Below, in pieces: positions 8,510 through 25,783 of a stretch of 64,000 nucleotides of DNA; position 1 is the first letter of the stretch; the number at the start of each line of letters is the position of its first letter. The DNA lies in contig JAJZED010000006.1 of the NCBI GenBank assembly GCA_021805775.1, positions 1 to 64,000 of the forward strand, written 5' to 3'. The notes beneath the pieces are model-generated. The model did no database searches and was not told the DNA's origin. It saw nothing but the letters and a program-made list of their open reading frames with translations. The DNA comes from a bacterium. Its GTDB lineage: Bacteria > Vulcanimicrobiota > Vulcanimicrobiia > Vulcanimicrobiales > Vulcanimicrobiaceae. A program made the position numbers and the translations under genes.

Positions 8510-9670
8510 CTATTCCGGCAATTTCGAGCGGATCGCGTCGAGTTCGTCGAAGAAGCGGTCGATTTCTTCGTCGGCGGTGTAGAAGTGCGGGCTGACGCGA
8601 AGGCCGCAGCCGGGGCGATAATCGAGAAAGACGCGGCGTGCAATCAACTCGTGATACGCACGTTCGGAACCAGCGAAATCGATACCGATCCACCCGGTCC
8701 GCTTCGCCGGATCGAGCGGCGTATTGACGCGAAGGCCGCGAGCGAGCGCCTCTTCGGCGATGCGCGTGGTGAGGCGAATATTGTGTTCGCGGATGCGGCG
8801 GATGCCGACCTCGGCGATCGCGGCATGCCCCGGCTGCGCTACCAGATATCCGGGGATCGTCGGAGTGCCATGCCCGAAACGGTACATCGAGCGTGCATAT
8901 TCGATCGGCGCCGCCTCGAACGAAAACGGTCGCTCGTGCGCCATCCAACCGGTTACTGCCGGTCGCAAGCGCTCCAACAATGCCGGGCGTACGTAGATCC
9001 AACCGCAGCCGGGGCCGCCGCAGAGCCATTTGTGGCTGCCGCCGGTGACGATATCGAGATCGAGCGCGCGAACGTCGTAGGGAACCACGCCGGTTGTCTG
9101 GTAGGCGTCGACGCAGAGCAGGGCCCCGACCTCCCGGCAGCGCGCCTGAATCGATGCGATGTCGGCGAGTGCTCCCGAGACGTAGTAGGCGTGCGAGATC
9201 ACCGCAAGTGCCGTGCGTTCGGTGATCGCCGCGCAGATGCGCTCGGTCGGGATCGTTCGTCCGTCGTCGGAGGGCACGACCTTCGTGCGCGCGCCGTAGC
9301 GCTCCCATTCTTTCCAAACGTAGGTAAGCGAAGGGAACTGCAGCGCTTCGTAGAGCACTTCGTTGCGCTCGCCGTGAAAATCGATCGCCGTAGCGAGCGC
9401 CGCCTGAAGAACCGAGACGTTCGGGCCGAGAAACGTGCTTCCCGGAACGGCGCCGACGAGCGTGCCGATGCCGTCGGCGATCTCGCCGATGCGCGGCAGC
9501 CAGCGAACCCACGCCTCGGGGCCGTCGGCGATCCACTCATCCATGTAGCGTTCGAGCGCGTCGCGTGCCGCGACCGGGGCGGCGCCCATCGAATGGCTCA
9601 CCAGATAGGTCGAGCGCTCCAACGTCGGAAAGCGTTCGCGCAACAGCGGCGCGGAGATCGTCTCAGCCAT
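8510..9670 (-). CDS. kynU: Kynureninase-like PLP enzyme (class V aminotransferase fold)
   Basis: A 386-residue fold-type I PLP enzyme. The lysine in GGSHKWLCGGPG (Lys214) is the expected cofactor anchor, preceded by the aspartate in LLCVDAYQTTG. Kynureninase cleaves kynurenine to anthranilate and alanine. The assignment rests on the class V fold plus direct coupling to tryptophan dioxygenase: the start ATG overlaps the dioxygenase stop by eight bases and a GGAAGTGAG ribosome site lies upstream. A related cysteine desulfurase or isopenicillin-epimerase-like role cannot be excluded by motif alone. Confidence 0.75.
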   Translation of the reverse strand: MAETISAPLLRERFPTLERSTYLVSHSMGAAPVAARDALERYMDEWIADGPEAWVRWLPRIGEIADGIGTLVGAVPGSTFLGPNVSVLQAALATAIDFHGERNEVLYEALQFPSLTYVWKEWERYGARTKVVPSDDGRTIPTERICAAITERTALAVISHAYYVSGALADIASIQARCREVGALLCVDAYQTTGVVPYDVRALDLDIVTGGSHKWLCGGPGCGWIYVRPALLERLRPAVTGWMAHERPFSFEAAPIEYARSMYRFGHGTPTIPGYLVAQPGHAAIAEVGIRRIREHNIRLTTRIAEEALARGLRVNTPLDPAKRTGWIGIDFAGSERAYHELIARRVFLDYRPGCGLRVSPHFYTADEEIDRFFDELDAIRSKLPE

Positions 9671-10439
9671 AGTTCTCACTTCCTAAATACGTGCGAACCT
9701 CCCAGAGTTCGGGAAAGATGCGTTTCTCTAGGGTCGTCTGCAGGTAACCGACGCCCGAGGATCCCCCGGTCCCCCGCTTGTGGCCGATCATCCGTTCGAC
9801 CATTCGCACGTGGCGGCCGCGCCAAAGCAAGAGACGTTCGTCGAACTCGATGCAGTCTTCGAGGAGAAGATAGAGCGCGGCATAGGTTCGCTCGTCGGTA
9901 TAGATCTTCTGATACGCGGCGATCGTTTCGTCGTGAGAGCCGCACGGAAAGCCCGCCCGGGCGAGGAACTGCGCGAGATGCGCGGGCAACGAAGGCGCGT
10001 GCATGCGTGCCATCAGGCGTTCGCGTTGCTCGGGCGTCAAGACCAAATGCTCGAAGAGGCGTTCGTCGCGCAGGCCGCAGAAAAACTCAAGCTCGCGAAA
10101 CTGCTGCGACTGAAATCCGCTCGCCGGGTTGAGGTGCTCGCGAAAACGATTGAACTCTTGCGGAGTCATCGTCTCGAGAATATCGACCTGCTCCCCAAGC
10201 ACGCGCTGAATGGCGTGGACTCGCCTGAATATCTTCCCCATGCGCATGAGATCGTCGGCATCGCAGGCGACGGCGAACTCGTCGAGCTCGTGCAAGAGCT
10301 GTTTGAACCAGAGTTCGTAAACTTGATGGATGACGATGAAGAGCAACTCGTCGTGATGGGCCGGCTGCGAGAGCGGTTTTTGCAGAGCGAGCAGTTCCTC
10401 GACTTTGAGATACGAGCCGTAGGTTAAGCGTTCGCTCAT
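9663..10439 (-). CDS. kynA: Tryptophan 2,3-dioxygenase
   Basis: A 258-residue haem dioxygenase opening with LTYGSYLKVEELLALQKPLS, then HDELLFIVIHQVYELWFKQLLHEL, which forms the substrate side of the haem pocket. RHVRMVERMIGHKRGTGGSSGVGYL supplies the haem-ligand histidine region and the glycine-rich substrate loop. It converts L-tryptophan to N-formylkynurenine. The length is slightly below the usual 270-290, but all diagnostic blocks are there. It overlaps the upstream DUF962 gene by ATGA and the downstream kynureninase by eight bases. No formamidase gene is in the operon. Confidence 0.93.
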   Translation of the reverse strand: MSERLTYGSYLKVEELLALQKPLSQPAHHDELLFIVIHQVYELWFKQLLHELDEFAVACDADDLMRMGKIFRRVHAIQRVLGEQVDILETMTPQEFNRFREHLNPASGFQSQQFRELEFFCGLRDERLFEHLVLTPEQRERLMARMHAPSLPAHLAQFLARAGFPCGSHDETIAAYQKIYTDERTYAALYLLLEDCIEFDERLLLWRGRHVRMVERMIGHKRGTGGSSGVGYLQTTLEKRIFPELWEVRTYLGSENYG

Positions 10440-15823: not shown

Positions 15824-17500
15824 ATGCGTTTTCGTGCCCTCGCTCTCGTCTCGATGGTTCTCTCGCTCGGCACCGCTCACGCTCCGACCCTGCGCAAAGC
15901 AGACCCGCCGAAAACGCTGGTCCTGACGCCCGTTCGCGAGCCGACGGTGCGCGTGCTGATGTTTCACCAAATTTCACAGCATCCCATCGAGCCGAAGACC
16001 GGCATCGGGACGCCGTGGATGACGCCGCAGCGTTTTGGCGAGCTCTTGGGTGCGCTCTCCAGGCGCGGCTATCACTTTATTACGATGCAGACCGCAATTG
16101 CGTTCCTTTCCGGGAAAATGCCCGCCGCGCATTTGCCGCATCGCTCGGTTACGTTGACCTTCGACGACGGTTATCGATCGGCTTGGACGGAAGCAACGCC
16201 GATTCTACGGCGATACCATGCGACCGCGACGATGTTTTTCGAGGGACATGCAACCGGCACGATACGAGGGCGCCTCACCGACGCCGATCTCCGAGCGATG
16301 GCGCGCTCCGGAATATGGTCGCTGCAATCGCACGGTTATGCGGGGCACTCCGATCTCGTCGTCGGCCCGCATGGAGAGCGTTCGCCGTATTGGTATGCAA
16401 ATCTCCAGTGGCTCGCGAAGAAACATCGTTTCGAGAGCATCGGCGAATTCGAACGGCGAGTACGCGACGATCTGTTGCGTTTCCGACGAACGTTCGAGCC
16501 GGTTACGGGAACTCGAATCGATCTTTTTGCTTACCCAAGCGGCGAGTACGGACAAAATGCAGCGTTGCCGCGTGGAGCGAATCCGCAAACGAACGTGCAG
16601 GCCGGGCACTCCAACGCATCCGGCTTAACACCCGCGCTCTTCCACGCGCTCGAAAGTTCCGGTTTCACGGCGGCGTTCGCCGTGTACGATCCGGGTCACG
16701 TTCACTTTGCTTCGCGCAGCGACGATATCTATGCATTGCCGCGCATCGGTTTTGCAGCCTCGTCCTCCATCGCTCGGGATTTGCAAGCGATGCAAGCTCT
16801 TGAAAGCAAGGGTATCGAATTTCCTGAGATCGACGACGGGAATTACACTGCCGTCGCTCCTATCGCCGTCGACGGATCGCAGATCTACGCAGCCTCGACG
16901 ACGCAGCCGATACTCTATCTCCTCAATCGTTACGGTCGGCGCATCGCTCGCTACGATGAACCCGCACTCAACCGAGGTCGCAACGCCGGACCGACTGCAA
17001 TCGGCGCCATCGCTCTCGTCCAACATCATCTTTGGGTGTTTCAGCAGGCCGGAGCCGATGCAAAGTCGGCGCCCTACCTCAGCGAATTTTCGCTCGCGCA
17101 TGGTGCACTCGTGCTCGAGTCGCGCCGCGCGTTGCCGAAGGCGATGAGTTGGCTCGTCGGGCTTGCGCCGTTGGGCGGGAGCCTCTACGGCATCGATGAC
17201 GGCGGCGCGATCTTTAACCTCGAAACGGGGCGGCAGGTCGGGGCGCTCGATCGTTCTCAAACCTACCAAAGTGGGCGGTTCGCCGGCCTTGCGGCGGGGG
17301 GCGGCGCGCTGGTGACCTACGATCGGAAAACGAATCGTCTGTTATACGTTACCCCCACAGGCGAGCTGCAAGCGTTCGCGGTATTGCACGGTGACATACG
17401 TTCGCTGGCGCTCGAAGGGGATCGCCTTTTTGTGAGCCGCTGGGGAAAGGCACGGCACATGCTGCGTATCTATACGATCGGAGCGAGGAATACGAAATGA
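15824..17500 (+). CDS. PgaB-like polysaccharide deacetylase with C-terminal propeller-like domain
   Basis: A 558-residue exported protein. Residues about 45-310 form a CE4/NodB deacetylase domain: VLMFHQI, TFDDGYRS with the metal-binding and catalytic Asp pair, and SHGYAGHSD with the Hx4H metal site found in PgaB-type enzymes. The remaining 230 or so residues hold repeated strands (IAVDGSQIYAAS, GLAPLGGSLYGIDD, LALEGDRLFVSRWG), suggesting a beta-propeller that may bind polymer. It would remove acetyl groups from a hexosamine polymer in the periplasm. It opens the Pel-like operon and overlaps the next gene by ATGA. PelA usually combines deacetylase and hydrolase; no hydrolase domain is seen here. 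Confidence 0.8.
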   Translation: MRFRALALVSMVLSLGTAHAPTLRKADPPKTLVLTPVREPTVRVLMFHQISQHPIEPKTGIGTPWMTPQRFGELLGALSRRGYHFITMQTAIAFLSGKMPAAHLPHRSVTLTFDDGYRSAWTEATPILRRYHATATMFFEGHATGTIRGRLTDADLRAMARSGIWSLQSHGYAGHSDLVVGPHGERSPYWYANLQWLAKKHRFESIGEFERRVRDDLLRFRRTFEPVTGTRIDLFAYPSGEYGQNAALPRGANPQTNVQAGHSNASGLTPALFHALESSGFTAAFAVYDPGHVHFASRSDDIYALPRIGFAASSSIARDLQAMQALESKGIEFPEIDDGNYTAVAPIAVDGSQIYAASTTQPILYLLNRYGRRIARYDEPALNRGRNAGPTAIGAIALVQHHLWVFQQAGADAKSAPYLSEFSLAHGALVLESRRALPKAMSWLVGLAPLGGSLYGIDDGGAIFNLETGRQVGALDRSQTYQSGRFAGLAAGGGALVTYDRKTNRLLYVTPTGELQAFAVLHGDIRSLALEGDRLFVSRWGKARHMLRIYTIGARNTK

Positions 17501-18309
17501 AAACCCTTATCGTGCCCGTCGTTCTGGCCTGTCTGCTGCACGCCGGTCGCGCCGTAGCTGCCGAACCGGCAGCGAACTCAACGCCCGCTCCCACGGCAAG
17601 CACCGTGCCGGATCGTGCCGGTTTTCTTTACACCTATTTGGAGCACACATCGCAATATCGCGACACGGTCTTTTCGATCGATGCCTATAAGCCGTTCGGC
17701 TCCCCGTCGCGTGCGATCCGTCCGTTCGTCGATGTTTTTGCCAACGACGATACCCGTACCGGGGGCGGCATCGTTCCGCAAACGCTGAACGATAACTACG
17801 CCGGGCTCGCCGTCGGCATGCAGTTCACCAATGCGGCCGGGCTGCGAGCGTTCGTGCAGGGTGGGGCGACAACGAAGATCGGTTCGATCGCGGCAACGCC
17901 ATCGGGTGGCGATCTGCGCGGCGGCCTCGAATATTACCGCGAATGGGGTGGCGCCGCGCGTCGGCAGGCTGCGTACGGCAATTTTTTCGGCGACGGCATC
18001 TATTACAGCCGCTACCACGATCTACAGTTCTACGAACAGCTAGAGATCGGCAGTACCCCACCGACGCAGTCGCACCCGGTAACGCTTTTCGCTCGCGGCG
18101 TTTTAGCGATGGACACGCACCCGTATTTTTACGGGAATTATGCCGAAATGACGCTCGGCGTGCGGCTAACGCCCTTCGGGCTGCGCGGCCCGGCGATCGA
18201 ACTCGGCGGCGTCGCGGGGACCTATCTGCGGGGGAATCTCTTGCCGATTGGAATATCGAAGAACTACGTCGATTTTCGCCCCACGATTAGTTACGGAGTA
18301 AATATTTAA
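17497..18309 (+). CDS. Predicted outer-membrane protein of the Pel-like locus
   Basis: A 270-residue exported protein (signal peptide to about residue 22, then a low-complexity Ala/Pro/Thr linker). The mature part shows alternating strands with aromatic residues (FSIDAYKPFG, NYAGLAVGMQF, YGNYAEMTLGVRLTPFG) and ends DFRPTISYGVNI, fitting a beta-barrel. PelB and PgaA pair a barrel with a TPR region; here the barrel part is small and no TPR is attached. It sits between deacetylase and response regulator, joined by ATGA and TAATG. An export-pore role is inferred from context, not from motif. Confidence 0.55.
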   Translation: MKTLIVPVVLACLLHAGRAVAAEPAANSTPAPTASTVPDRAGFLYTYLEHTSQYRDTVFSIDAYKPFGSPSRAIRPFVDVFANDDTRTGGGIVPQTLNDNYAGLAVGMQFTNAAGLRAFVQGGATTKIGSIAATPSGGDLRGGLEYYREWGGAARRQAAYGNFFGDGIYYSRYHDLQFYEQLEIGSTPPTQSHPVTLFARGVLAMDTHPYFYGNYAEMTLGVRLTPFGLRGPAIELGGVAGTYLRGNLLPIGISKNYVDFRPTISYGVNI

Positions 18310-19538
18310 TGTATCCGGTCGAGCGAGCGCAGGAAGCGTTGGCGCAATTCGGCATCCGACAGGTCGATATCTGGCTCGACGGGGATGCCGGTGCGCTGCC
18401 GATTCTTGCAGCGCGCGCGACCACCGAGGAAGAGAGCGCTCTCGGTTCATCGCCGGCGGAGATTCGCGAGCGGATTACGACGGCGATTCCCGTTTTTGGA
18501 GGAGAACGGTTAGGGATGCCGCTGATCGGCCCGAACGGCGCGTTCGGATATATCGAGTTTTTCAGCCCGCAAAAAATTTCGCTCGGCGTCGCCGCACAGT
18601 TGGAGGCATGGAGCGACGACGTCGCGCTCGCCATTTCAACGCAGCGCGCCGCGCACGACTTGGAATCCCCTTCGCGAGGATCGATTCTTATCGCCGACGA
18701 TGACGCGAATATCCGGCGTCTGCTGCTCGCACTCTTGACGCGACGCGGATTTCGCGCGTCTGCGGTGGGAAATGGTGCCGATGCCTTCGAGCGAGCCGTC
18801 GAGGACCGCCCCGATCTCATCCTCCTCGACTACCGTATGCCGATCCTGAACGGACGCGATACGGCGCTGCGATTACGAGCCGATCCTCGAACGCACGCTA
18901 TCCCGATCGTGATGGTGACCGCGCAGAGCGGAACAGAGGAGAAGGTGGCGGCGCTGGAGGCCGGCGCTCAGGACTACGTGACGAAGCCGTTCGAACCGGA
19001 AGAACTCGTCGCGCGCATTGCGGGGCATCTGCGCTGGCGCACGTTGCTCGCCGAACCCACGGCCCCGAAAAAAACAGCAGCGTCGGCGGCTAACCCTCCG
19101 GCAAGCGCAGCCCCAACTCCGACGGCGACCTCGTCGCCCCCGGTCTCCGGCGGAGAGGACGCGGGTTGGATCGCCGCTACCCACGCCGAACAGCTCGGTC
19201 GTTTTAGCGAAGCCCTCGATCTCTATCTCGAGGAGGCGGAGCGCGCCGAACGTCAGTTGCAGTACGCGCGCGCCGCTATTGCCTTTCGTAGCGCCTCGGC
19301 GATGGCGGGGCGACAGCAACAACCGGATCTGTCGAATAAGTTACTGCGGCTCGCCGGTAAAATGTATCTGCAGTTGGCCGAAGATTCGAAGCAAGGAAGC
19401 GATATATCGGATGCCTACGTCAGCGCGGCGAAGTGCTTTTTGCTCGCCGGAAACTTACAGCTCGCAAAAAAATCGGTATCGATTGCCGAATCGATGACGT
19501 CGGTGATCGCCGACGACCACCCATCGTCGATCGCGTAG
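18309..19538 (+). CDS. GAF-REC-TPR response regulator of the Pel-like locus
   Basis: A 409-residue cytoplasmic protein in three parts. Residues 1-115 resemble a GAF domain (PLIGPNGAFGYIEFF). Residues about 125-245 are a receiver domain with the acidic pair in ILIADDDANIRR, the phospho-acceptor in LILLDYRMP, the Thr in MVTAQSG and the Lys in TKPFEP. A Pro/Ala/Thr linker follows, then about 290-400 forms TPR-like helices (EALDLYLEEAERAERQLQYA, KLLRLAGKMYLQLAED). There is no DNA-binding output, so it probably acts by protein contact. It occupies the place where Pel operons carry PelD (GAF) and PelE (TPR). Confidence 0.75.
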   Translation: MYPVERAQEALAQFGIRQVDIWLDGDAGALPILAARATTEEESALGSSPAEIRERITTAIPVFGGERLGMPLIGPNGAFGYIEFFSPQKISLGVAAQLEAWSDDVALAISTQRAAHDLESPSRGSILIADDDANIRRLLLALLTRRGFRASAVGNGADAFERAVEDRPDLILLDYRMPILNGRDTALRLRADPRTHAIPIVMVTAQSGTEEKVAALEAGAQDYVTKPFEPEELVARIAGHLRWRTLLAEPTAPKKTAASAANPPASAAPTPTATSSPPVSGGEDAGWIAATHAEQLGRFSEALDLYLEEAERAERQLQYARAAIAFRSASAMAGRQQQPDLSNKLLRLAGKMYLQLAEDSKQGSDISDAYVSAAKCFLLAGNLQLAKKSVSIAESMTSVIADDHPSSIA

Positions 19539-19541
19539 CCG

Positions 19542-20999
19542 GTGCAGTCGCTCCTCCTGACCGAAGGGACCTATCCGTACGTTCGCGGTGGAGTCTCGAC
19601 ATGGTGCCACTCCTTCATCTCCGGGTTGTCGGAAATACAGTTTACGGTGTACGCGCTCATCGGGAATCCGTCGAGCGCTACTGAATATGTATTGCCGCCG
19701 AACGTCGTTCGCACGATTGCGATGCCGCTTTGGGGGCACGAACGGTTGGACGAATATAGCGGAGGCGACCTTCAGTCGGAAGGGCGGCGCGATGTGCGCG
19801 CGCTGCGTCAGGAATTCGTTCCCCTCTTTTCCGCGTTTCTTAACGAAATATCGCGTGGAACGGAAAGCGCCAAACCACAGCGGTTAGTCGACGCGATCGG
19901 GCAACTCTATCTGTACTTCCGAAGACATGATTACGACTGGACGATGCGGCGCGAAGAAGTGTGGAATGTCACATTGGCTCACTTTCGCTCTAGCGCTTGG
20001 CACGACCGGTTTATGTCGGCGCTCGAAGCGATCGAGCTAACGCGTTCGTTTTATCGTTATCTCGCGCCGCTTGCGGTTGCCATTCCGCCGAGCGACATCG
20101 TTCACACCAGCGCCGCAGGTCTATGCGGTTTAGTCGCCGTTGCCGCAAAGAGCGCATTAGGATATCCGGTGATATTGACCGAACACGGCGTCTATTTACG
20201 CGAACGCGTGCTCGAACTCGCACGCTCCGGGGTGCCGTTTTCGGATCGAACGATAAAGAAAAATCTTTTCTCGGCGGTCGCAAGGGCGACCTATGCCGTT
20301 GCCGATATTATCGCGCCCGTCTGCAGCTACAATGCGACGTGGGAGCGTTTTTACGGCGTCCCGGACGACCGTATTATGGTAATCTATAACGGCGTCGACG
20401 AGCGACGGTTCGACGATCGTCATTATCGTCCGGAGCGACCGACGGTGACCGCGATGGTGCGCATCGATCCGCTCAAAGATATCGAGACGCTTGTGGCAAG
20501 CGTTCCATTCGTGCGCGAACGTTTTCCCGACGTCGTGTTTGATATTTGGGGCCCGATTCACGACGAGGCGTATAACCTTCGGGTCGTGGAACTCGTCGGG
20601 GTGCTGGGACTCGAGGAGTGCGTGCGTTTTCGAGGATCGACCTCCGATCCGGCTGCGGCGTATGCCGAGGCAAGCGTCGTTGCGCTTTCGTCGATCTCCG
20701 AGGGCTTTCCGTATTCGGTCATCGAGGCAATGATGTGCGCCAAGCCGGTCGTCGCAACCGACGTCGGTGGGGCGCGCGAAGCGATCGGCGAATGTGGCAC
20801 CGTCGTCCCTCCGAAACGCCCGCAAAGGCTCGCCGAAGCGCTCTGCGATATGCTCGCTCGCCCTGAAGAGGCGGTGCTCCTAGGGAAGCGCGCGCGCGAG
20901 CGGGCGCTCGAGCTTTTTACTTTGAGCGGTTGTTTGGCGAGCTACCGGGCGCTCTACGCTGAGGTCGCATCGGCGGTTCCCGTGGGTGGCCGAGCGTGA
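19542..20999 (+). CDS. pelF: PelF-like glycosyltransferase (GT4 with DUF3492)
   Basis: A 485-residue cytosolic GT4-fold enzyme. The opening LLLTEGTYPYVRGGVSTWCHSFI is the DUF3492 signature of PelF. The C-terminal lobe carries VIYNGVDERRF, and EGFPYSVIEAMMCAKPVVATDVGGAREA contains the two glutamates of the retaining GT4 EX7E motif. PelF polymerises an N-acetylhexosamine polymer at the inner membrane. GTG at 19542 follows the regulator's stop by three bases; the stop overlaps PelG by GTGA. A preceding ribosome site is weak, so coupling probably drives translation. Confidence 0.9.
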   Translation: MQSLLLTEGTYPYVRGGVSTWCHSFISGLSEIQFTVYALIGNPSSATEYVLPPNVVRTIAMPLWGHERLDEYSGGDLQSEGRRDVRALRQEFVPLFSAFLNEISRGTESAKPQRLVDAIGQLYLYFRRHDYDWTMRREEVWNVTLAHFRSSAWHDRFMSALEAIELTRSFYRYLAPLAVAIPPSDIVHTSAAGLCGLVAVAAKSALGYPVILTEHGVYLRERVLELARSGVPFSDRTIKKNLFSAVARATYAVADIIAPVCSYNATWERFYGVPDDRIMVIYNGVDERRFDDRHYRPERPTVTAMVRIDPLKDIETLVASVPFVRERFPDVVFDIWGPIHDEAYNLRVVELVGVLGLEECVRFRGSTSDPAAAYAEASVVALSSISEGFPYSVIEAMMCAKPVVATDVGGAREAIGECGTVVPPKRPQRLAEALCDMLARPEEAVLLGKRARERALELFTLSGCLASYRALYAEVASAVPVGGRA

Positions 21000-22606
21000 G
21001 CGACGACCGAGATGCGTTCGAACCTTTCGAACGCCGCGAGCACGCAGTCGAGTCGGCCGCACGCACGATCGTCGCGCTTTCACGCCGCGATCGCTTCGGC
21101 ATCGGTTGGAGGCCAAAAGGTGTCGACGAGGTGGCGATCCTATTGGAATCGCTGGGTTATAGCCCGGAGGTCGTAGCGGAACTTTGGTATCCCGATCTCT
21201 TTGCGCTCGCTCGCGACGTCAGTGCGGCGGTGAATCGATACGTTACCGACGAAGAACGACGGGAGCCCCCAACGCTTGACTGGTTCACGCAGACGTGCCG
21301 TGATTATGCCATAGGTTCGCTCTATTCGGCGCCCTGGATCGTTGCGGTCATCGGTTTAGCAATTTTTGGAGCGTCGCTCTGGTCGAGTCTTTCGACCCCG
21401 TTGCACTTGGCAACGGCGATCGCGCTCGGGGTCTATGCGGCGCAAATCGTCAGCGGATTTTTCTCGCAGGGAATTGCGCGTCGACTGACGTTTTATTTTT
21501 TGCAGTCGAACGATTCCCTCATGGCGTGGACAGTTCGGCGTTTTGTCGTAGCCGGTCTGCTAACGACCGCGCTCGTCTCAGCCGGCCTCTTTGCCGGGCT
21601 GGCCGCATTCGTGGGCTTTTCCGATGCAGCGTTAGCGGCGCTGTTTTGCGCGGGGACGACGATTTTCCAACTCGCGCTAGCGCCGCTCTACACGTTGCGG
21701 CGTTTTACTTGGATCGTCGCGTTGGCGATCGTAGCAACGGCTATTACGGGTGGCACCTTCGTCTTTGTCTTCCATCGGCACGTCGACGTGCCGTGGGAAC
21801 CGGCGACGCTCGCCGTCGAGGTCGGGCTCCTTGGGGCGGCGATCCTTGCAACCACGATGTCCTGGCTCGCGCGCCGTGCGGCGAGCTCGGGCGCACCGGT
21901 GCCCCCCGCACTCGAATCTATCGTGCGATCGACCTTTCCATACGCGCTGTTTGGAGCGCTCTATTTCCTCTCGATTCTTATCGATCGCGTCGCTGCCGGG
22001 ATCGCGGCCGCGAACGGGCGCGGTTTCGCCTACGCCTCGGCGTACGAACTCGGTGCCGATATCGCCTTGCTGGCGATTCTTCCGGTGGTCGGGGTCATCA
22101 ACGTCATGCTCGAAGCATTGCCGCGTCGCATTCTCAAAGGCGCGGAGGGAGGTATTCGAGATCTGGGAAAATTCGATCGCTCGATGTTGCGCTTTTACGG
22201 GTGGGGGATACTCGCCGTTGCTACGGCGACGCTCCTCGCAGCGCTCATTGGGGAAGTCGTCGGCCCGCGCATGATTCTCTCAGCTCGCCTGGGGACGATC
22301 GGGAACGCGGCACTCTCGCTCGCCGTGCTGCGCGTAGCAATTCCGGCCTACGGTCTCGTCATGCTCGGCCTGTTAAACACGCAGTTGCTCTTTTTTCTCA
22401 GTCGACCGAGGGCGCCGGTGATCGGTACGGCCGTCGGCGCGATCGCGGCGCTCGCAACCTGTGGTTGGGCGCTCGCAGTGCACCTCTCGGCGGAGGCGAT
22501 GGTCGGCGGGCTATTGGCTTCGGCTCTCGCCTTTACGGCGATTACAACGGTGGCGGCGGTGCGAACGATGCGCCGTTTCTCGTATTCGTATTACGCGGCG
22601 TATTAA
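20996..22606 (+). CDS. pelG: PelG-like polysaccharide-exporting membrane protein
   Basis: A 536-residue protein with about 100 soluble N-terminal residues, then 11-12 membrane helices from about residue 103. PYALFGALYFLSILIDRVA and ASAYELGADIALLAILPVVG resemble the matching PelG segments, and the gene follows pelF by a GTGA overlap, the usual arrangement. PelG is thought to carry or assist polymer across the inner membrane with PelF. The protein is about 80 residues longer than typical PelG, the extra being the soluble head, which could dock the regulator or PelF. It overlaps the convergent START-like gene by four bases. Confidence 0.75.
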   Translation: MSDDRDAFEPFERREHAVESAARTIVALSRRDRFGIGWRPKGVDEVAILLESLGYSPEVVAELWYPDLFALARDVSAAVNRYVTDEERREPPTLDWFTQTCRDYAIGSLYSAPWIVAVIGLAIFGASLWSSLSTPLHLATAIALGVYAAQIVSGFFSQGIARRLTFYFLQSNDSLMAWTVRRFVVAGLLTTALVSAGLFAGLAAFVGFSDAALAALFCAGTTIFQLALAPLYTLRRFTWIVALAIVATAITGGTFVFVFHRHVDVPWEPATLAVEVGLLGAAILATTMSWLARRAASSGAPVPPALESIVRSTFPYALFGALYFLSILIDRVAAGIAAANGRGFAYASAYELGADIALLAILPVVGVINVMLEALPRRILKGAEGGIRDLGKFDRSMLRFYGWGILAVATATLLAALIGEVVGPRMILSARLGTIGNAALSLAVLRVAIPAYGLVMLGLLNTQLLFFLSRPRAPVIGTAVGAIAALATCGWALAVHLSAEAMVGGLLASALAFTAITTVAAVRTMRRFSYSYYAAY

Positions 22607-23139: not shown

Positions 23140-25200
23140 CTATTCTCTCGATGTCCAATGCTCGTGAAGCTCTTTCATTACCTCTTCGCGTGCGCGTCGA
23201 TAGCTCTCGTGGTTCGCTCCGTTTCCGGCTTCGGCGCGGGTTCGGGCGAGGAGGCTTTCGAAGCGGGCATCTGTGGCTGCGTGCGTGCGCCGATAGCGCT
23301 CGATGACGCTGTCTCCGCGGGTGAATTCCGCGAGCATATTCGGCCAGCGAGCGAGTTCGGCGAGTTGGAGATCCCACAACAGAAAGCCGGCCATTGCGCC
23401 GAGCGCAGTTTGCGGCGTATGCGGATCGATGTCGTGCTGGAAATCGGCGTGCCATCGTAGCAGATCGGCGGCCGGCATTGGGCGCGCTATTCCGTAGCCT
23501 TGCCCTCGGTCCGCTCCAAGGATCGTTGCCGCTTCGATCGTTCCACGATTTTCAAGTCCCTCGACCGTGACGGGGATATCGAGTGCGTGTGCGAGGCGCG
23601 TGAGGTGTAAGATAAATTCGAGCGCTCGTTGCGGATGCTGTTGCGTTCCCTCTACGAGCGCCTGATCGATCTTGACGCCGTCGAATGGGTAACGATCGAG
23701 ACGAACGAGCGAACTATGGGCCGATCCGAGATCGTCTTGCTCGATCTCGATACCGTCGCTGCGGAGTTGTGCGATGAACTGCTCGTGTCGGGTAAGATCG
23801 GCGACATCCTCCGGCGTTTCGAGCATCTCGAGCGTAAGCCGTTCCGGGGCTAGGCTATTTTCGTTGAGAATGGCGAAAAGAACTTCGTGGTAGCGAAGAT
23901 CGGCGAGTGCCGGAGCTGGAATATTCACGGCGATGTTGGTTCGGAGCCCCGCGCGTTCGAGCATCGTGCAGTCGCGGCAAGCGGTGCGAAGTACCGTTTC
24001 AAAGAGTTGTAGGAGATCGGACTCGCCGAGCGCGGGGAGAAAGCGTTGCGCGGGAATCATCTCGCCGCGTTCGTCGATCAGGCGAGCGAGCGCCTCGACT
24101 TTTACCAACGCGCTATCGCGGAGATCGACGATCGGTTGGTAGAGGACGGCGACGCTCTGCATATCGAGGAGTCGACGATAGCCGGCGCTCTCGATCATCG
24201 GGACGATCGGCGAGCGAATGCGCCGCGCGACTTCCCGCCCGAGGACGAGTTGTAGATGGATAAGAAATTTCTCGATTCGATTGCTGGCGAAGAATCCCGG
24301 ATAGTTGCTGTAGAGCATGAGAAGCGCGATCGTGCGCCCCGATTCATCGAGGAGCGGAATAGCCGCCCCCGCTCGGAAGCCGAGCTCGCCGGAGATCGAA
24401 CGCCACGGCGTACGGTCCTCGCCGATCATCCACGCATGAGCGACGACAATCTCGGCGCTTCGCCAGGCCCGGCCGCCGGGGCCGCGTCCCGCCGCACGAT
24501 TTGCATCGATATGAATCTTGGGAATCTTCCCCTGTTCCATCGCTTCGTGGTATCGTCGCCCGAGCCCAAAGGTTGCCTCGACCTGGAGCTCCCCCGTGCT
24601 GTCCGAACGGAGAAACATTCCTGCGAGCAGTCCTTCGATCGCGCTCATTGCCTCGAAGGCTCCGCGAATGAGATCGGAGAGATTCGCCGCGCTGCTGAAA
24701 CCGCGATCGATCTGCGTGATCGTTGCAGTGAGGCTCTTCCCAACGGTGCCGTAGCTCTCGGCCTGCTCGCGAATATCGAGCAAGATACGCTGGTGCAGGG
24801 CGCGTTCGATGCGTGCGGAGCGTTCGATCGGCAGCGTGGCGAGACGTTCGGCGATCTGCTCTTCCACGACTGAGTACGCGTGGGCGAGCCACTGCGGCCC
24901 GAGGCCTACGAGCGCGTGAACCGAGCCGACGTGCCGAGCGCGTTCGGCATGCTTGGGAAAGTCGAGATCGGGTTCGAGGAGGAGGGCGAAATACTCGACA
25001 AGCCGCCCCTGCAAACGCGCGAACTCCTCCTCGCTAAGGCGGGCGAGTATGTCGGCGACCGGCCCGCAACGCCGAACCTGCGCGAGGGTATGCTCGACGA
25101 TCTCCGCGAGGGTTCGCTCGTCGAACACGGCAAGCTCGGCGAAAGCCGAAGCAGCCTTCGGGCCGTATGCAACCGAGGAGCCTCCCTCCGAAAAATTCAC
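23140..25200 (-). CDS. Globin-coupled GAF-EAL cyclic-di-GMP phosphodiesterase
   Basis: A 686-residue protein. Residues about 25-170 resemble the sensor-globin domain of DosC/globin-coupled proteins, with the histidine of HVGSVHALVGLGPQW placed as haem ligand. A GAF domain follows (about 205-335), then an EAL domain (about 347-600). The EAL residues look intact: VEALAR, the Asn of AVNIPAPAL, the ExxE of LEMLETPE, EQDDLGSAHSSL, VKIDQ, VEGLEN and RGQGYG. It would hydrolyse cyclic-di-GMP under oxygen or gas control, opposing the Pel-like locus. The GTG at 25200 is chosen for the AGGGAGG ribosome site seven bases upstream. Confidence 0.75.
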   Translation of the reverse strand: MNFSEGGSSVAYGPKAASAFAELAVFDERTLAEIVEHTLAQVRRCGPVADILARLSEEEFARLQGRLVEYFALLLEPDLDFPKHAERARHVGSVHALVGLGPQWLAHAYSVVEEQIAERLATLPIERSARIERALHQRILLDIREQAESYGTVGKSLTATITQIDRGFSSAANLSDLIRGAFEAMSAIEGLLAGMFLRSDSTGELQVEATFGLGRRYHEAMEQGKIPKIHIDANRAAGRGPGGRAWRSAEIVVAHAWMIGEDRTPWRSISGELGFRAGAAIPLLDESGRTIALLMLYSNYPGFFASNRIEKFLIHLQLVLGREVARRIRSPIVPMIESAGYRRLLDMQSVAVLYQPIVDLRDSALVKVEALARLIDERGEMIPAQRFLPALGESDLLQLFETVLRTACRDCTMLERAGLRTNIAVNIPAPALADLRYHEVLFAILNENSLAPERLTLEMLETPEDVADLTRHEQFIAQLRSDGIEIEQDDLGSAHSSLVRLDRYPFDGVKIDQALVEGTQQHPQRALEFILHLTRLAHALDIPVTVEGLENRGTIEAATILGADRGQGYGIARPMPAADLLRWHADFQHDIDPHTPQTALGAMAGFLLWDLQLAELARWPNMLAEFTRGDSVIERYRRTHAATDARFESLLARTRAEAGNGANHESYRRAREEVMKELHEHWTSRE

Positions 25201-25294
25201 CAACGCCTCCCTGCCTGCGTACGTCCCCCCCCGGGGACATGCTAGCACACTTTGGGCTCGTTTCCCTTTGCGAAGCTCGCCGGCGCGGCCGAAC

Positions 25295-25783
25295 CTAAAG
25301 TCGCGCGACAGCCTTTTTCGCAAGCGCGAGGAGGCGTGGGTCGGCTTCCCGTGGGGCGATCTGCTTCTTGAAACTCAAAGAAATCCAGAGAATATAACTC
25401 CCTTTCAAAACCTCCAGGCTCCCACCCCCGGTATAGAATGCGCCATCGCCGATGCCGCCGTAGGATGTTGTCGGCCACCATTGTTTTCGATCCGACGCGA
25501 AGCGCTCGCGCGCCGATGCATATGACTGAATGTGCGCGTCGAGCTCACCGACCGAGGTGCGATAGCGACAGAGCACCAGCGGACCGACGGGGCGGCCGCC
25601 GCCGAGCGAGGCGTTCGCTATATGGGATGCGGCGAAGCCCTTCGGCGCCTGCACCCCCAGGGCGGCGCTCGCATCGGCCTGGGTGACGATCGCGCAGGGG
25701 TTGATGGGGCGAACTGCCGCGCGTGCATGCCCCGATTCTAGGGCTACTGCGGCGACAAAGGCGAGGAAGAGTAAGCGTTTCAT
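25295..25783 (-). CDS. Exported small protein, DUF3558-like (paralogue)
   Basis: A 162-residue protein with a signal peptide (MKRLLFLAFVAAVALESG then HARAA). NPCAIVTQADASAALG and a second cysteine in LVLCRYRT are followed by strands ending EVLKGSYILWISL and LLALAKKAVARL. The last two blocks mirror KGSHRVAIELL and LVKLAKEIAARM of the protein at 3206-3622, so the two are likely paralogues about 22 kb apart. The ATG at 25783 begins the signal peptide; the longer open frame runs back through tRNA-Ser and is not coding. Function unknown. Confidence 0.68.
   Translation of the reverse strand: MKRLLFLAFVAAVALESGHARAAVRPINPCAIVTQADASAALGVQAPKGFAASHIANASLGGGRPVGPLVLCRYRTSVGELDAHIQSYASARERFASDRKQWWPTTSYGGIGDGAFYTGGGSLEVLKGSYILWISLSFKKQIAPREADPRLLALAKKAVARL

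Follow-up and report, generated by a model that had tools for sequence, protein, structure and literature searches.

The window, a 64,000-nucleotide stretch of DNA, is part of contig 23 in a genome of 2.59 Mb (28 contigs, 95.9% complete) and carries a block of five genes at 15824-22606 (Table 1). The open reading frame coordinates showed overlaps of 4, 1 and 4 nt and a single 3-nt gap between neighbouring genes, all on the plus strand, in agreement with the overlapping or nearly touching arrangement described in the first-pass annotation. Scanning the locus for promoters and terminators gave scores no better than those of shuffled sequences. A convergent gene adjoining the block (23140-25323, minus strand) encodes a protein with a protoglobin-like domain and an EAL domain, a possible oxygen-linked c-di-GMP phosphodiesterase.

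Table 1 Genes of the five-gene block in the window
Gene	Position	Strand	Product
Gene 1	15824..17500	+	PgaB-type CE4 deacetylase with C-terminal probable beta-propeller
Gene 2	17497..18309	+	270-aa outer-membrane beta barrel; probable export pore
Gene 3	18309..19538	+	Probable GAF - receiver (REC) - TPR-like protein; putative regulator
Gene 4	19542..20999	+	PelF, GT4-family glycosyltransferase; putative polymerase
Gene 5	20996..22606	+	MOP-fold flippase with extra conserved N-terminal domain

Gene 4 was assigned to PelF, as first annotated. It passed the cut-off of the NCBI PelF equivalog NF038011 over the whole protein (175.5 bits, cut-off 100, residues 5-472) and contained a DUF3492 domain (PF11997, 166 bits). 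Both glutamates of the GT4 E-x7-E motif (E387 and E395) were invariant in 14 orthologues. In another genome of the same genus (L018, G070:C44), pelF (8883-10337) is broken by one in-frame TAG, indicating either decay or an assembly error.

The gene that follows pelF with an overlap, a position that PelG likewise occupies, had been annotated as a recognisable PelG, an assignment that did not hold. The PelG model PF16933 matched neither gene 5 nor any of 15 orthologues, and gave no match in the genome as a whole at E 10; a profile-profile comparison against seven canonical PelGs from the phylum did not reach significance. A profile of these seven PelGs did align with gene 5 orthologues, weakly and in a consistent register at the first transmembrane helices (domain E 6e-4 to 1.5 for several orthologues, in a 15-sequence search). 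In the moderate-confidence AF2 model of gene 5 (mean pLDDT 74, dropping below 50 at residues 100-132), approximately residues 100-530 matched structures of MATE, WzxE and MurJ with Z ~20, and every row among the fold matches listed was a MOP-type transporter. Gene 5 thus belongs to the MOP flippase superfamily by predicted fold. A viral fold library returned no significant match. The protein is made of an extra N-terminal domain of about 105 residues followed by the MOP fold (approximately residues 105-530), and the N-terminal part is the most conserved, with a mean column identity of 0.82 compared to 0.66-0.77. PelG itself is said to have a MOP fold (PMC13254593). Because the fold matches listed were all of the MOP type, PF16933 was silent and the PelG register was weak, we consider gene 5 a predicted MOP flippase in the position of PelG, perhaps a distant relative of PelG, and not a member of the PelG family.

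Gene 1 encodes a protein with a signal-like N-terminus, a deacetylase domain (approximately residues 40-320) and a probable propeller region (approximately residues 325-555). It matched the polysaccharide deacetylase family PF01522 (62.3 bits, cut-off 23.1), and residues D114, D115, H170 and H175 were invariant in 13 orthologues; the match above cut-off and the conserved D-D-H-H set identify a CE4-type deacetylase. The closest NCBIfam model was TIGR03938 (PgaB), with 93 bits over the N-terminal part only, and the best solved relatives in the PDB were BpsB and PgaB (83 bits). Gene 1 does not encode a full PgaB. The TIGR03938 equivalog demands a deacetylase and a GH153 domain with a score above 322 bits, and the C-terminal half of gene 1 is unrelated.

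The 230 C-terminal residues of the window protein had no family match. Searches with the orthologue profile or with single orthologues returned weak matches to designed Cake propellers (E 1e-10), a PQQ protein, DUF6923, DUF4394, phytase-like proteins and glutamine cyclotransferase, families that we take to be mostly propeller or propeller-like. In an internal-repeat test, the mutual matches of the repeat profiles were scarcely better than those of shuffled sequences, and the assignment of a propeller therefore rests on the weak family matches and on the sequence pattern. We therefore describe the C-terminal domain as a probable beta-propeller. Collectively, the PF01522, TIGR03938 and BpsB/PgaB matches bear out the annotation of a PgaB-type deacetylase in the place of PelA, with the propeller part probable.

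The product of gene 2 was modelled by AF2 as a 12-strand barrel (mean pLDDT 73) with a signal-like N-terminal helix. A Pfam search with the barrel and 11 orthologues gave no match. Small outer-membrane channels and translocator barrels were the closest among the fold matches listed (Z ~14), and the lipid-modifying barrels LpxR and OMPLA were also among them. PgaA, BcsC and AlgE were absent from the 50 fold matches listed for the barrel, which leaves such matches possible. To our knowledge, the E. coli nfr operon has been described without BcsB. A barrel homologue in another genome (G087, HMM E 3e-25) makes up the C-terminus of a TPR protein of 419 residues, whose gene is flanked by one of the BcsB family and by a GT2 gene that codes for a C-terminal MshEN domain (L120:6755-11702, G087:C104). 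Synthase-type exopolysaccharide loci are laid out in this way, with a synthase resembling NfrB and a TPR-barrel protein resembling NfrA (PMC8669469). The fusion of the homologue to TPRs beside BcsB-like and GT2-MshEN genes is the best evidence in our analysis for a pore, and by analogy gene 2 probably encodes an export pore.

Two observations stand against the pore reading, namely the 12 predicted strands, compared to 16 or 18 in the solved exopolysaccharide exporters AlgE, PgaA, BcsC and PelB (PMC12141448), and the lack of a TPR scaffold. Gene 2 was accordingly rejected as a 16-strand TPR-barrel exporter of the PelB/PgaA/BcsC type, with 12 strands predicted and no TPR in the window protein. 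The first-pass annotation had proposed that a small barrel replaces the outer-membrane part, PelB, and had suggested predicting its structure in search of a PelB/PgaA-like pore. The 12-strand model and the TPR-fused homologue in the BcsB/GT2-MshEN locus agree with this replacement, and the prediction returned an outer-membrane barrel, but not the 16 strands and the TPRs. Two further barrel genes were encountered. A stand-alone homologue (L119:453-1145, G032:C222; 39% identical) lies opposite LigD- and Ku-like genes, with no pel-type gene nearby on its short contig. In L019 (G062:C79, 9865-10690), the barrel gene is split over two frames by a frameshift or an assembly error.

The properties of genes 2 and 5 bear on another explanation, a lipid-linked glycan pathway in which gene 4 would build an oligosaccharide, gene 5 would flip it as WzxE or MurJ do, gene 1 would trim N-acetyl groups and the barrel would modify or display a surface glycolipid. 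Such a pathway would account for WzxE and MurJ being among the best structural matches listed for gene 5, for a gene 5 that is not PelG by profile, and for LpxR and OMPLA among the structural matches of the barrel. However, the block has no initiating transferase, ligase or Wzy-type polymerase, its GT4 enzyme is a PelF equivalog, and the barrel homologue sits in a synthase-type locus. We consider this pathway improbable and favour the secretion of a Pel-like polymer.

The gene 5 family was found in 16 of the 149 genomes of the phylum. Genes 1 to 5 occurred in this order on one contig in 13 genomes (window included) and over two contigs in a 14th, so the five-gene order that was to be sought in related genomes is indeed shared. 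In one genome with gene 5, the locus is cut by a short contig. In a genome from another family, genes for the receiver protein, PelF, the flippase and the deacetylase lie on one contig and those for the deacetylase and the barrel on another; this appears to be a rotated but complete five-gene set. Adjacency and order were kept in the 13 genomes down to approximately 45-65% protein identity with changing flanking genes, indicating that the linkage of the five genes is not due to chance. Outside the genus, the TonB receptor gene upstream and the EAL gene downstream were no longer adjacent to the block.

A pattern-based scan of 84,980 species genomes returned 14 loci, all in genomes of the 149-genome set, and may miss distant relatives because it required two short conserved motifs. 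The named carriers of the gene 5 family were mostly MAGs of Candidatus Eremiobacterota. One contig labelled Rhodospirillales (JANYGA010000158.1, L102) also carries the locus; its genome was placed in the family of the window, and the label is probably a mislabel or reflects a contaminated bin. As far as the sequence searches extended, the locus is held by one lineage of Ca. Eremiobacterota.

The PelF domain PF11997 was present in 26 genomes of the phylum, and PF16933 was found above its cut-off in 10. All 26 encoded either the gene 5 flippase (16 genomes) or a canonical PelG (10 genomes), and never both. The propeller-like domain was found in all 16 genomes with gene 5, with one weak partial match outside, and the barrel in 15 of the 16 and in two other genomes. 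These overlaps were strong (hypergeometric p ~1e-20 and 1e-17), but the compared genomes are related, so that the co-occurrence statistics exaggerate the independence of the cases. Genomes of 7-8 Mb from other classes of the phylum (G134-G140, loci L082-L089) carry up to four copies of canonical pelF/pelG. Beside these genes are genes for TM-GAF proteins (PelD-like, with no GGDEF match) and TM-TPR proteins (PelE-like), and one locus of this set also has STAS and PilZ-domain genes.

Family and profile searches of the whole genome covered PelG, PelD-GGDEF, BcsB, BcsC, PgaB and PgaC. No PelG, PelD-GGDEF, BcsB or BcsC barrel was detected above cut-off; gene 1 was the only PgaB-type match, and no GT2 protein came near the PgaC cut-off for a PNAG synthase. 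Separate Pel genes elsewhere in the genome, which the first-pass annotation had named as evidence against its reading, were thus not seen as PelD-GGDEF or as a BcsC-type barrel above cut-off. Its proposed mixture of PNAG-type and Pel-type parts is reduced to the deacetylase domain on the PNAG side, with no PNAG synthase over cut-off.

It is very unlikely that the locus is part of a canonical Pel system that has merely been rearranged, with PelD, PelE, PelB and PelC encoded elsewhere. An assembly in 28 contigs at 95.9% completeness, and genome-wide searches limited to PelG, PelD-GGDEF, BcsB, BcsC, PgaB and PgaC, give this explanation some room. Arguing against it are a genome without PelG, PelD-GGDEF over cut-off or a BcsC-type barrel, the lack of canonical PelG in all 16 genomes with gene 5, and the recurrence of the same five genes as a unit. 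A self-contained Pel-like locus is the reading that we retain.

The gene 3 product contains a receiver domain (PF00072, 95.8 bits) in which residues D130, D131, D174, T204 and K226 were invariant in 13 orthologues. A GAF domain ahead of the receiver, matched in 4 of 13 orthologues (best E 6e-4), was graded as probable, and the C-terminus had weak TPR matches. The protein has no transmembrane segment and is predicted to be soluble; family searches gave no match to a DNA-binding domain. Wherever the locus could be read, its gene immediately preceded pelF, and the rotated locus was no exception. Gene 3 had been proposed to replace PelD/PelE, which goes further than the comparison allows. The module types (probable GAF and TPR-like helices) are common to gene 3 and to the TM-GAF and TM-TPR proteins encoded beside canonical PelFG, yet profile comparison with PelD and PelE of the same phylum revealed no detectable relation. 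The canonical PelD-PelE-PelF-PelG core was thus rejected for this locus: PelF is present, PelG and PelD-GGDEF were not found in the genome, and gene 3 shows no detectable relation to PelD/PelE.

Gene 3 could also be an ordinary response regulator that is in the operon by chance, or that controls transcription or another pathway, with constitutive production of the polymer by the other four genes. Receiver domains are common, and the lack of a detectable relation to PelD or PelE fits such a regulator, whereas the constant place directly before pelF and the missing DNA-binding output domain argue against it. We regard this as rather unlikely and favour a putative regulator of the synthase.

Alongside the gene identities established at the level of family or predicted fold, the conserved linkage and the mutual exclusion with canonical PelG, we infer an order of steps, a product, a direction for the pore and a switch. 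It is fairly likely, judging from sequence, that the tightly packed block works as one operon to make and secrete a Pel-like, partly deacetylated amino-sugar polymer. By its family, the gene 4 enzyme PelF would polymerise a UDP-N-acetylhexosamine in the cytoplasm. Gene 5, in the place of PelG and by its predicted fold, would pass the chain across the inner membrane, and its N-terminal domain may dock PelF or the gene 3 protein. In the periplasm, gene 1 would deacetylate the chain and expose amines, as its conserved catalytic residues suggest; the propeller-like domain of this protein may serve to retain the polymer or to make contact with the pore. Gene 2 would provide the exit through the outer membrane, as the L120 homologue suggests. 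From gene order, gene 3 may gate the synthase; because it stands at the place of PelD/PelE, phosphorylation would be the switch and not c-di-GMP bound to PelD.

The overall reading of the first-pass annotation thus survives in part: the locus is compact, conserved and Pel-like, with replacements for PelA and for the outer-membrane part. The PelG assignment does not hold, and the replacement of PelD/PelE by gene 3 is conjectural. More tentatively, the locus could represent a distinct exopolysaccharide machine of one Ca. Eremiobacterota lineage, combining a receiver-switched PelF, a MOP flippase other than PelG, a propeller-bearing deacetylase of the PgaB type and a 12-strand barrel that has no TPR scaffold.

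Among known systems, the Gram-positive pelDEA(DA)FG loci of Bacillus cereus and Streptococcus share with this locus a PelF-type GT4 enzyme followed by a MOP-superfamily exporter, a separate deacetylase that lacks the hydrolase domain of PelA and, in part of the members, a regulator with no c-di-GMP domain (PMC7112168, PMC13254593). The locus differs from them by an exporter outside PF16933, a PgaB-like deacetylase with a propeller, the lack of PelD/PelE and an added outer-membrane barrel. The PelF polymerase is also shared with Pseudomonas aeruginosa pelABCDEFG, together with the roles of deacetylase, inner-membrane exporter and outer-membrane pore. Unlike that system, the locus lacks the PelA hydrolase domain, the PelC ring, the 16-strand TPR barrel PelB and PelD/PelE, and its MOP protein is only remotely similar to PelG. 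In the PgaABCD system for PNAG, PgaB (with BpsB) is closest to the catalytic domain of gene 1, but the genome has no PgaC GT2 synthase over cut-off, gene 1 carries no GH153 domain and the locus has no PgaA-type TPR barrel. The NfrA-NfrB type exopolysaccharide locus (PMC8669469) has an Eremiobacterota look-alike in L120, where the homologue of gene 2 provides the barrel of a TPR-barrel protein adjoining a GT2-MshEN synthase; the barrel of the window is free-standing, has no TPRs and is encoded next to a GT4 enzyme and a flippase.

The literature searched yielded no system with these parts in combination. Pel, by definition a partly deacetylated alpha-1,4 GalNAc polymer, ranks with the most widespread polymers of biofilms, and the inner-membrane complex PelD-PelE-PelF-PelG is treated as its core. 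In this locus PelF is kept while every other known Pel part is swapped or rebuilt. This distinguishes the requirements of PelF, namely an exporter of MOP type, a deacetylase and some control input, from the parts that can be replaced. If our reading is true, the locus would offer a naturally occurring set of five genes suited to an outer-membrane bacterium, a second way out through the outer membrane, and a case in which two-component-type control takes the place of c-di-GMP in a Pel-type synthase.
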